Assembly: GCF_038070105.1 (NCBI RefSeq)
Contig: NZ_JBBPBZ010000004.1
Coordinates: 186,001 to 250,000 of the forward strand
Origin: Methylocystis sp. IM3
GTDB lineage: Bacteria > Pseudomonadota > Alphaproteobacteria > Rhizobiales > Beijerinckiaceae
Length of the DNA: 64,000 nt
Direction: 5' to 3'
Translations under genes and position numbers: made by a program
Notes under the pieces: generated by a model
Databases searched by the model: none
The model's input: the letters and a program-made list of their open reading frames with translations, nothing else
Told to the model about the DNA's origin: nothing
Shown here: in pieces, positions 47,976 through 52,058 of the stretch
Layout of the letters: each line of letters opens with the position of its first letter
How positions within the stretch are numbered: position 1 is the first letter of the stretch

Positions 47976-48068
47976 TCATGCGGCCATCGCTGTTTCCTTG
48001 ACGCCGAAGTAAGCCTCGTCGGGCGTGCGCCCGTCAAGGCTCGAGTGCGGGCGCCGCTCGTTGTAGAA
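47976..48068 (-). pseudogene. IS3 orfB, 3' piece
   Basis: Codes FYNERRPHSSLDGRTPDEAY, then FGVKETAMAA and the stop. It continues the frame of the piece at 52050-52526 on the other side of the insertion. Confidence 0.8.
48060..48068. repeat. 9-bp direct repeat, left copy
   Basis: GTTGTAGAA, identical to 52050-52058. The original IS3 sequence needs only one copy, so this is a target duplication or a recombination core. Confidence 0.75.
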
Positions 48069-48106
48069 CGAGGTTTGAGAACACCCACAGGACCACCTGC
48101 GGGGAG

Positions 48107-48634
48107 GTGCAATATCGACTTCATCCGTGGTTTGGGCGCGAGATCTTCGTCCACGCTGCGATTGATAAGACAGATGACGCCGTATTCCAGTGTTCGGTCG
48201 ATGGCTCGGATGTCAAGCGATGGCTCGAGATCCCCGCATGGATGTTTGATCGTACTGCGTGCGCGCCCGAAGTACGCTTTTCCTCCGTCCCCGTCGTTAG
48301 TCTGCAAGCGCTCAGCGCGTTGTCCTCGCTGCTTGATCAGGTGTTGAAGAACACGGCGCCATCATCGAATGCCCGGGTTTTCGGCGCATCCCGGGTCTCT
48401 CACGACCAGAATCAGGGAGAGACCTATGGTGCGGAAGACGACGGCGTCAGCGAGCGAGGATCGGCGCAAGCGGCGCCTGCCTGCGCGGCAGATGGATTTA
48501 TTCCCACGCGGGGTAGCGGCCGGCGCACCCAATTGGCCCGACCTGCCAAAGGATGCGCAACAAGCGCTGGTCGTCCTGATGACGCGGCTGATCCTGGAGT
48601 ATGCGCGGACAACGACGATGGGGGCCGGCCATGA
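48107..48634 (+). CDS. Accessory protein of the recombinase element (possibly DUF5372-like)
   Basis: The recognisable part is about 88 residues: YRLHPWFGREIFVHAAIDKT, DGSDVKRWLEIPAWMFDR and LQALSALSSLLDQVL. Short proteins of this type are found before large serine recombinase genes. The family assignment is tentative. The frame stays open to 48634, but the part after about 48370 overlaps the next gene and looks non-natural. Start GTG 48107 is a guess because coding-like sequence reaches up to the element end. Confidence 0.5.
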   Translation: MQYRLHPWFGREIFVHAAIDKTDDAVFQCSVDGSDVKRWLEIPAWMFDRTACAPEVRFSSVPVVSLQALSALSSLLDQVLKNTAPSSNARVFGASRVSHDQNQGETYGAEDDGVSERGSAQAAPACAADGFIPTRGSGRRTQLARPAKGCATSAGRPDDAADPGVCADNDDGGRP

Positions 48635-48641
48635 GCGCTGA
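48426..48641 (+). CDS. Small accessory protein preceding the recombinase
   Basis: This encodes 71 residues with a basic N-terminus (MVRKTTASASEDRRKRRLPA) and a helix LPKDAQQALVVLMTRLILEY. Short helical proteins ending in LMTRLIL...A are usual companions of this recombinase type. AGGGAGAG precedes the ATG, and the stop overlaps the recombinase start by 11 bases. Confidence 0.6.
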   Translation: MVRKTTASASEDRRKRRLPARQMDLFPRGVAAGAPNWPDLPKDAQQALVVLMTRLILEYARTTTMGAGHER

Positions 48642-48957
48642 GAAGATCGGCCCTCACCACCTGAAGCGCAAGGCTATCCTCTATGTACGCCAATCGTCGG
48701 CCCACCAAGTGCTGCACAACCGCGAGAGTGGCGCGTTGCAATACGCCATGCGGGATCGGCTGACGGCCCTGGGCTTCACCGAGATCGAAGTGATTGACGA
48801 GGATCTCGGCCGCTCGGCGGCAGGCAGCGTGCAGCGCGCCGCCTTCGAACGGATGGTTGCCGAGGTCTGCCTCGGCAAGGTCGGCGCCGTCTGCGCCCGG
48901 GAGGTCTTGAACTGCCCCGGGTTTGCCGGAGGCCCCAACTCTTGAGAGACTGGGGCT

Positions 48958-49293
48958 ATGGAAGCGAAGAAGAAGACATCGAACAGATTTTCACCTGAAG
49001 TTCGGGAGCGGGCGGTTCGGATGGTGCTGGAGCACCAGGGGGACCACGCCTCGCAATGGGCGACGATCGCCTCGATTGCCGGGAAGATCGGCTGCACGGG
49101 CGAGACGCTTCGCGGCTGGGTCCGACAGGCGGAGCGAGACGCCGGCTCGCGCGCCGGCGTCACGTCGGACGAACGGGCGCGGCTGAAGGCGCTGGAGCGG
49201 GAGAACCGCGAACTCCGGCAGGCCAATGACATTTTGCGGAAGGCTTCGGCGTATTTTGCTCAGGCGGAGCTCGACCGCCGGTCGAAACCATGA
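48958..49293 (+). CDS. IS3 OrfA
   Basis: This encodes 111 residues with a helix-turn-helix ([39 protein letters not shown]) and a leucine-zipper-like tail ([18 protein letters not shown]). It gives DNA recognition for transposition. Its stop overlaps the OrfB start by 4 bases. Confidence 0.88.
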
Positions 49294-50191
49294 TCGCCTT
49301 CATCGACGCGCACCGGGAGAGCTACGGGGTCGAGCCGATCTGCAAGGTTTTGCCGATCGCCCCGTCGACGTATCGCTCGCATGCAGCGCAGCGGCGCGAT
49401 GAGACGAAGCTGTCGACGCGGGGGCGTCGGGACCGGGCGCTCGGCGAGAAGATCCGCCGCGTGTTCGCGGAGAACTTCTCCGTCTACGGCGCTCGAAAAG
49501 TGTGGCGGCAGCTGCGGCGCGAGGGGAGGATGTCGCGCGCTGCACGGTGGAGCGGCTCATGCGGCGCCTGGGCTTGCAGGGCGTCGTGCGCGGTCGGCCG
49601 GCAAAAACCACTGTGAGCGACAGCAAGGCGCCCTGTCCGAGAGACAAGGTGAACCGACAGTTCGCGGCGGATCGGCCAAACCGGCTGTGGGTAGCCGACT
49701 TTACCTATGTCGCGACCTGGCAGGGCTTCGTCTATGTCGCTTTCGTTATCGACGTCTTCGCCCGGCGGATTGTCGGGTGGCGAGTCTCGCGTTCGGCGCA
49801 GACGCCCTTCGTGCTCGACGCGCTGGAACAGGCGTTGTGCGATCGACAGCCTCTTCGCGGCGGTCTCGTTCATCACAGCGACCGCGGCGTGCAATATGTC
49901 TCGATCAAATACACGGAGCGACTTGCGGACGCCGGTGTCGAACCCTCAGTCGGCAGCGTCGGCGACTCTTACGACAACGCGCTCGCCGAGACGATCAACG
50001 GGCTCTACAAGGCCGAGGTGATCTGGCGGCGCGGACCGTGGCGCGGCCTCGAGCAGGTGGAGTTCGCCACGCTTGAATGGGTGGACTGGTTCAACAACAA
50101 GAGATTGCTGGAGCCGATCGGAAACATTCCGCCGGCCGAGGCAGAAGCGCGCTACTATGCGCAAATCGAGGAGCACGCCATGGCGGCGTGA
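49290..50191 (+). pseudogene. IS3 OrfB, frameshifted
   Basis: The first frame covers [20 protein letters not shown] to [14 protein letters not shown]. One base is then missing near 49526, and the rest ([72 protein letters not shown]) continues in the next frame. All DDE residues are there, but as read the product would stop at 49616. Confidence 0.82.
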
Positions 50192-52049
50192 CTCAAACGA
50201 AACGGCCTCCGGCAAACCCGGGGCGGTTCAGTCTCGCGCTTTGCCCGCAATAGCCGGGACTGGCAACAACTGATCGAGATGTGCCGCGTCGTCGACACGG
50301 TGCTCGTCGATCAGGAAACGATCTACGCGCCTCGGCACGGCGATGACCGTTTGCTGCTCGGGCTCAAAGGGAGCCTCAACGAGTACGAGCTCGACCTTCT
50401 CCGCCAGCGCTCGCTTTCCGCCCGTTATGCGAAGGCCCGGCGCGGCGAACTCGTCGTGGCGGCTCCGGTGGGCTTCGTGAAGGCCGGCGACCGATATGAG
50501 AAGGATCCGGATCGGCGCGTGCAAGCGGCAATTGCGCTGGTCTTCGACAAAATCGGGGAGCTCGGAAGCGCGCGACAGGCGCTGCTTTGGTTCCATGAGC
50601 AGAACCTGGACCTTCCAGTGAAACAGAGGAACGGCGAGACGACCTGGCGGCGGCCCAATTACGCCACTCTCCACAGGATGGTCGAGAACCCGATCTACGG
50701 CGGCGCCTATGCCTATGGTAGAACGGCCGTGGCGATGGGATACGGCGCCAGGGGCGCCGGTGCGCAAATCCGTCGCAAAGCACGCGCCGACTGGCTCGCG
50801 CTGAAGCCCGGCGCCCACGACGGCTACGTCAGCTGGGAGAGGTTCGAAGCGATCCGCACGATGGTTTCCAGCAATATTCCAACCAGCCGACATCACGGCG
50901 CGCCCAAACATGGCGACGCCTTGCTCGCCGGCCTGATCCGTTGCCGCCGCTGTGGGCGCAAACTGACGCTGCGATATACCGGCATGCAGCATCATATCCC
51001 GCGTTACAGTTGCTCGCGCGGCTGGATGGATAATGGCGAGCCGCGCTGCATCGCGTTCGGTGGCTTGCGCGTCGACGACGCAATCGAGGAAGCACTTCTT
51101 GGCGTTGTTGGCCCCGGCGCCATTGCCGCGTCGGTCGCTGCGGCCGAAGAGGCCGCAGAGCGTCGGGATCAGGTGCGCGACGCTCTTGGCCGCGATCTTG
51201 AAGCGGCGCGCTACGCCGCCGACCGCGCCTTCCGCAATATGACGCCGCCGACCCCGCCAATCGACTGGTCGCCGGCGAACTCGAGGCGCGCTGGAATCAG
51301 GCCCTTGTCCGCGTCGCCGACGTCGAAAGCAAGATCGTTGCGCATGAGACGGCTTCTCCGACGCCGACGATTGATCCGGCTGCGCTCGCCCTGCTGGGAG
51401 CGAACCTCAAAACAGTCTGGTCAGCCCCAACGACGGACGCGCGATTGAAGAAGCGCATCGTGCGGACGCTGATCCACGAGGTAGTGGCCGATATCGATGA
51501 CGATGCTTGCGAGATCGTTATCGCCGTCCACTGGACAGGCGGCGTTCATAGCGAACTTCGCTTGCCCAAACGCCGACGCGGACAGCGCAACAGCACACCC
51601 GCTGACATCATCGCCGCCGTGCGTGAACTGGCGCTGATCGCCAGCGACGATCTGATAGCCGGCCTTCTCAACCGTAATGGCCTCAAAACCGGCCACGGCA
51701 ACCGTTGGACCCGCGAGCGCGTCACCTCGTTGCGCTCACACCATCGCATCCCGGTGTTCAAGGCCGCCGAGGATGACGTCGAGCCCTGGCTCAATCTCTC
51801 CGACGCCGCGCGCCTATTGAAGGTCTCACCCAAGACTCTCCGACTGGCGGTGGAAGTCGGCGAGATCGAAGGCCGACGACCTTTGTCAGATGGACCTTGG
51901 ATATTCGCGCGCGCGGCGCTTGCGACTGACGCGGCCAGATCGGTCGTCGAAAGAGCGCGTCGCAACGCGAGATACCCCGCGGGACCAGGCCGAGGCCAGC
52001 AAAGCCTCTTCCCTTCAATGACATAGAGAGATGGGTGTTCTAATGCGCG

Positions 52050-52058
52050 GTTGTAGAA
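52050..52058. repeat. 9-bp direct repeat, right copy
   Basis: GTTGTAGAA, partner of 48060-48068, flanking the recombinase element. Confidence 0.75.

Follow-up and report, generated by a model that had tools for sequence, protein, structure and literature searches.

A large serine recombinase element inserted at a conserved transposase motif, with an accessory gene that is probably complete only in the circular form

In the transposon Tn4451 the formation of the circle creates a promoter for tnpX, and the core of Tn4451-type elements is GA. Archaeal integrases of the SSV type have their attP within a gene of the element, and this gene, which integration splits, is that of the integrase itself, a tyrosine recombinase. 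Serine integrases of the A118, SPbeta YokA and phiC31 type combine Resolvase, Recombinase and zinc-ribbon domains, and they use a pseudo-palindromic attP with a 2-bp core. The accessible part of Durrant et al. 2022 describes multi-targeting large serine recombinases (LSRs) in which one family enters many target genes at a core dinucleotide plus a motif, and the multi-targeting clade often carries DUF4368 (PMC10083194). Here we describe an LSR element in a stretch of 64,000 nucleotides (nt) from Methylocystis sp. IM3 (contig NZ_JBBPBZ010000004.1, positions 186,001 to 250,000), referred to as the window, and compare it with relatives in other genomes and plasmids.

We are highly confident that the element is a three-gene mobile unit, composed of two small open reading frames (ORF1 and ORF2) and an LSR gene, which forms a circle and recombines attP with attB at a TA dinucleotide in the tyrosine-asparagine (Y-N) codons of transposase genes, and that ORF1 is complete only in the circle. 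This reading builds on the ends, the core, the targets, an empty site, a split frame and the distribution of targets by clade, all as read from sequence. As in Tn4451/Tn5397-type transposons (TnpX/TndX), an LSR mobilises the element, probably by a circle, but the core is TA and not GA, the target is a coding motif of transposases, and the circle completes a protein here and a promoter there. With the SSV type it shares an attP inside an element gene, whereas the gene that is split is an accessory gene and not the integrase. The element resembles the serine integrases in its domains, its attP and its 2-bp core, and differs from them in the self-complementary TA core, in an attB that is a conserved transposase protein motif, in a 2.6-kb carrier unit with two small genes and in an attP that lies inside an accessory gene. 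For A118-family integrases the available part of one report places the zinc-ribbon motif at bp 16-24 (PMC3783163); here the outer motif of attP lies at about bp 16-23, with AGAACACCCA at bp 14-23. The accessible part of Durrant et al. 2022 (PMC10083194) mentions no transposase motif among the targets of the multi-targeting LSRs, in contrast to this element. Targeting of a transposase motif by such enzymes may be new.

Core to core and with a nested insertion sequence (IS) included, the element occupies 48064..52055 (+), with edges taken from relatives and from an exact empty site in the same genome. When the flanks are joined at TA, 200 + 200 bp match contig C5 of that genome with 0 mismatches, and the uninterrupted copy on C5 is a stop-to-stop transposase frame of 363 amino acids (aa). 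The exact restoration of the target claimed in an earlier note on this DNA is thus borne out. The element lies antisense inside this IS3-type transposase gene, the C-terminal part of which, from the Y codon (YNERRPHSSLDG...) to the stop, is at 47976..48065 (-, identical to the C5 copy), and the N-terminal part of which, ending at the Y codon, is at 52053..52580 (-, C5-like to about 52527 with 99% identity). Disregarding the nested IS the element measures about 2.66 kb, in agreement with the compact unit of about 2.65 kb previously proposed and with relatives of 2618-2700 bp core to core (L052 excluded, its left end being misread).

The same note had reported a large serine recombinase gene; the gene is present but not intact. 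It is broken twice, by the nested IS3-type copy (48908..50230, +; rve and rve_3, with GTCT repeats at 48904-48907 and 50231-50234) and by a frame change between the two pieces downstream, which lie in different frames even when the IS is disregarded. The N-terminal piece, residues 1 to about 92, is at 48631..48907, the middle piece with the Recombinase and zinc-ribbon domains (profile 91-429) at 50228..51244 and the C-terminal piece (profile 426-689, in the other frame, with its stop at 52024-52026) at 51232..52026, all on the plus strand. PF07508 and PF13408 scored above cut-off on the LSR pieces in the window and PF00239 below it on each split piece. Nine intact relatives form a 690-column alignment with a conserved VRQSS, and profile matches were obtained to the SPbeta YokA structures 9dxh (E 3e-8) and 9dxd (E 4e-8). 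Intact copies exist, for example, on plasmids of Methylocystis iwaonis and Bradyrhizobium. Its domains, core and attP make the recombinase an LSR and thus an enzyme of a known kind, and in the intact relatives it would recombine attP with attB. ORF2 (48426..48641, +) predicts a small protein of 71 aa of the QMDLF type, overlaps the LSR start, is annotated in relatives and shows a weak codon-phase signal.

The exchange point was located by comparing the edges of 94 loci (numbered with the prefix L), namely the window, the best 80 of 226 relatives in species genomes and 13 of 16 fetched plasmid loci (L016-L018 omitted). Both ends were recognised in 74 of these; in the remaining 20 one end had been truncated by the contig, was missing or resembled the motif too little. 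The pair of cores was TA/TA in 70 of the 74, TG/TG in L045, AA/AA in L099 and misread or degenerate in two (L052, L090). The bases next to TA behave in opposite ways among the relatives: the base before it may vary with the target on the left and is fixed by the element on the right, while the base after it follows the element on the left and the target on the right. At L009, for example, TTATA on the left (target) stands against TTGTA on the right (element). This opposite behaviour places the exchange at a 2-bp dinucleotide, found in the window at 48064-48065 in attL and 52054-52055 in attR. The deviating cores of L099 and L045 match their own target codons, F and (read by hand) H replacing Y, and appear to be natural core changes.

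In attP, formed by joining the right and left ends, dyad symmetry extends over offsets 0-3 and, with the exception of 18, over 15-22 (53 distinct sites). On this evidence AGAACACCCA is the outer part of the attP half-sites, at 48078..48087 (+) on the left, bp 14-23 from the centre, and inverted at 52032..52041 (-) on the right, where it overlaps the start codon of ORF1. The repeat GTTGTAGAA, at 48060..48068 (+) in attL and 52050..52058 (+) in attR, is by the same comparison, beyond its TA, a likeness between attP and the target attB and not a duplication.

The gene that would be divided by integration is ORF1. Its first part lies at the right end of the element (52031..52055, +), where an ATG 4 nt past the LSR stop would give MGVLMRGC before the core is reached. 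The body occupies the left end (48065..48634, +); about 105 of its codons align among relatives, and the remainder is open across ORF2. In 79 of 81 loci the right end has an ATG, mostly 4 nt past the LSR stop, from which a frame beginning with MGV or MGA (rarely MGI) crosses the core and continues stop-free to HPW; the exceptions are L070, without the ATG, and L090, with a stop. The ATG stands at the place equivalent to that of the window in 78 of 79 right ends, and between core and HPW within the element no ATG was found in any of 80 loci. As integrated in the window, the body has no ATG near its beginning and one GTG at +43. Codon phase in the body (143/119/282 in 18 disjoint pairs) shows differences mostly at third positions, while the last 210 bases lean weakly to the frame of ORF2 (84/124/151 at ORF2 positions 1, 2 and 3), and length changes in the start region are of 3 or 9 nt. 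The kept frame, the missing ATG within the element and the codon phase together make ORF1 very likely a real gene whose start is separated by integration. No family was found for ORF1, and a weak structure model is SH3-like.

We consider it unlikely that the split is accidental, with the junction frame open only through the constraint on the LSR site and the GC-rich DNA. The ATG does overlap the outer motif of attP, the body begins with N-T/A-H, residues that overlap the other arm, and beside the core the first 45 bases give a weak codon-phase signal (10/15/23). An accident of this kind is, however, difficult to reconcile with a body that is coding by codon phase without its own ATG near the start, with length changes in multiples of 3 and with the keeping of the frame beyond these loci. 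Among the sibling elements treated below, which have other cores and represent five further target classes, one join restored the conserved target motif and also opened ORF1 in 15 of 18 tried, in a search that was free to choose the join, so that single cases are weak. In the IstB class of siblings the first ORF1 start is GTG, with an ATG in the same frame.

Target analysis was carried out on 81 loci, eight with weaker right ends having been restored by hand and L052 dropped; 8 of the 81 had too little flank, leaving 73. The joined flanks give [YFH][NH]xxRxH across the junction in 59 of the 73, with the LSR antisense in 56 and sense in 3. Insertion falls on the codons for Y-N in YNxxRPH, a motif of transposases with an integrase core, mostly of IS3 type. 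The core is the first two bases of the tyrosine codon, and many different host transposases are hit, the 56 antisense insertions representing 55 distinct sites. A family scan, which omitted L026, L039, L054, L055, L075, L078, L079, L081 and L090, kept 61 antisense loci, 48 of them with an N-terminal target part of at least 70 aa; rve_3 matched 43 of these 48 and rve 32. A right-end pattern searched for in 397 genomes of the order was present in 6, the window's genome included, and the control pattern gave none among the matches listed. Of 6 right ends besides that of the window, five are antisense into a transposase, stopping at Y, and in the sixth YNTERPHSALD is read in sense; three had already been used, and the new ones are two antisense and one sense. 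The clade is patchy: at E <= 1e-250, a limit that the broken copy of the window fails, it was present in 4 of 297 genomes of the order. The element might give the cut transposase a new C-terminus, though through no common fusion: in the antisense reading of the right end YNRALEHPS continues in the window, and the frame stops after YNPVS in others.

Sibling LSRs were examined at 24 loci, including two from the window's own genome and eight fetched of 25 listed plasmid hits, the others being neither of this YN type nor repeats. A target was recognised in 19 of the 24 (not in L117, L118, L119, L139 and L141); the motifs were read by eye, and Pfam is in accord for those flanks that were scanned. 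The IS66 TnpC protein is entered at a FAGSD motif (L110A, L114, L123, L125, and L124 on one flank) or at an IRPIA motif (L110B, L132, L133, and L134 on one flank), and IstB at its Walker A motif (L115, L126-L130). Single loci lie at HPHIHCVV of a Y2/IS91-type transposase (L143), IQVLLGHA of a tyrosine recombinase (L135), EGIDWR of IS66 TnpB (L121) and the P-loop of an APS-kinase-like gene (L140). The corresponding families on the flanks were DDE_Tnp_IS66 (L110), IstB_IS21 (L115, where the flanks cover profile 3-101 and 101-235, and L126), Y2_Tnp (L143), Phage_integrase (L135), TnpB_IS66 (L121) and APS_kinase (L140). The two siblings of the window's genome sit in one IS66 copy about 26 kb downstream on the same contig (L110, C4:263950-268676), at FAGSDEGA/ENWA and ERTIRPIA/LNRKN of TnpC. 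The IRPIA clade occurs in both orientations, antisense in L110B and L133 and sense in L132 and L134, as would be allowed by a self-complementary GC core, which fits three solved IRPIA joins.

LSR identity between target classes is 34-68%. In a tree of 36 LSRs (18 chosen of the YN type and 18 siblings) seven target labels need 6 changes, the minimum possible. The YN, IS66-FAGSD and IS66-IRPIA groups each form one side of a supported branch; the IstB group contains the tyrosine-recombinase case, and the position of L121 and L143, which have long branches, is uncertain. In these sequences, then, the target follows LSR phylogeny. It is accordingly quite improbable that a relaxed, multi-targeting LSR is found in IS elements only through their abundance and harmlessness. 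LSRs of multiple targets are indeed described in the part of Durrant et al. 2022 available (PMC10083194), and a few loci lie outside a recognised transposase (L026, L039, L055), but the same codon pair is hit in otherwise different genes, as counted above, the siblings have their own motifs by clade, and abundance alone does not fix the base.

Copies of 100% identity over 2.6 kb were found in unlike flanks (L009/L011, L025/L026, L032/L077, L072/L074), which indicates that movement is recent. The suggestion that the element is now immobile and that its copies spread with the IS elements carrying them, compatible with the broken LSR of the window and with loci whose flanks are of two kinds, is very improbable in the face of pairs such as L009 and L011, which lie on two plasmids of one strain and there occupy different IS3-type transposases.

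Two observations from which the earlier note had started hold: GTTGTAGAA stands on both sides of the element and occurs exactly twice in the window, both times on the plus strand (0.21 expected; 4 of 100 shuffles reach two), and the inverted 10-bp AGAACACCCA likewise occurs exactly twice (0.03 expected; 0 of 100 shuffles reach two). The placing of the element ends at AGAACACCCA has to be corrected, since the exchange point lies 12 bp further out, and a 9-bp duplication has to be abandoned, the repeat being 9 bp here and often only TTGTA in relatives. Of the two readings offered, that of a transposon family is retained, widespread and with common ends, whereas a recombinase using a longer core is not, only TA being shared. 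The relatives' edges have the inverted motif in common and an empty site exists, but the targets, expected to be unrelated, share one conserved transposase motif. As candidates, a 9-bp target duplication of constant length and varying sequence and a 9-bp core were both ruled out, the former by the edge comparison across relatives and the latter by the dinucleotide that alone is common to element and target there. Although the window shows an inverted motif and nine bases that are identical on either side, it is hardly credible that a transposon here duplicates 9 bp of target at semi-random sites and has AGAACACCCA for its terminal inverted repeats, since the TTGTA region is common to the relatives on the side of the element, the repeat varies in length, the bases flanking TA behave oppositely, the sites share one motif and the recombinase is an LSR.

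Several observations weigh against the reading of a circle-forming unit directed at YNxxRPH. The strict motif is missing in 14 of the 73 loci; six of these are near-motif transposases by hand (L019, L021, L054, L067, L071, L082), L075 carries a stop at its Y codon, a single flank fits in L079, L081 and L090, and no explanation was found for L026, L039, L055 and L078, the first of which belongs to an identical-copy pair. The self-complementary TA predicts insertion in both orientations, yet antisense and sense stand at 56 to 3. No circle junction was seen, either in viral contigs, with 0 exact right ends, or with the joined-end query in plasmids, where 4 records cover at least 80% of it, all as two pieces over 513 bp. 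The outer motif of attP, sought at a shifted place in attB, gave a negative mean score throughout, the best being -5.7 at a shift of -6 on the RPH side; the A118 model predicts a 5-bp shift towards the centre. Upstream of HPW, a GTG or TTG start lies within the element in 16 of 80 loci, the window included, in the flank only in 39 and nowhere in 25, so a variant ORF1 could be made in the integrated state. The relative L140, of Walker A type, lies at STGAGKT of its APS-kinase-like gene, which is not a transposase; this site is possibly an off-target that shares the motif DNA. Flanks from two different transposases (e.g. L013, L058) fit later recombination and not simple insertion.

In L049, L058 and L013 the two flanks come from different transposase genes, and in some of these cases one half is repeated on either side; this probably reflects recombination between copies or an inversion helped by the self-complementary core. 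At L013 (NZ_CP083722.1) a resistance gene acrD predicted in PLSDB spans the LSR end and the right flank; as this stretch is the element end plus the target transposase, acrD is probably a misannotation. In the window, the likeness of the right flank to C5 ends near 52527 and is followed by a reverse-transcriptase ORF (RVT_1; 52626-54311, +), judged by eye to be of the group II intron type, and the same IS3 copy may therefore have been hit twice.

In the mechanism that we propose for the circle-forming unit, the LSR would excise the element as a circle, with ORF2, a possible directionality factor, or another factor setting the direction. Within the circle, translation that terminates at the stop of the LSR gene would restart 4 nt later at the ATG and cross TA into ORF1, ORF2 and the LSR gene. 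The LSR would then recombine attP with an attB encoding Y-N of YNxxRPH at the 2-bp TA core, IS3-type elements serving as landing sites and each insertion cutting a transposase gene. As integration would split ORF1, the full protein would be made only from the circle, where its most likely role is to assist or gate integration or to signal that the element is free. Sibling LSRs would act likewise at other motifs conserved in transposition genes.

The wider idea of a serine-integrase lineage that hunts transposons through clade-specific constrained motifs, with a circle-only accessory protein that senses the state of the element and gates its re-integration, is one for which we find the case evenly balanced. 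The motifs concerned would be YNxxRPH of IS3-type transposases, the two of IS66 TnpC, Walker A of IstB, HUH of a Y2/IS91-type transposase and LLGH of a tyrosine recombinase. Since the motif is functionally constrained, a target so hunted could not easily mutate away. An integrase of this kind would be both specific and promiscuous, reading DNA that is fixed by a protein motif common to many mobile elements. The natural retargeting between motifs would offer a data set for how LSRs recognise attB, of practical value for genome engineering, and a gene assembled only in the circle would be a simple and directly testable state sensor. A further prediction of the proposal is that other transposons are inactivated by a whole class of such elements.

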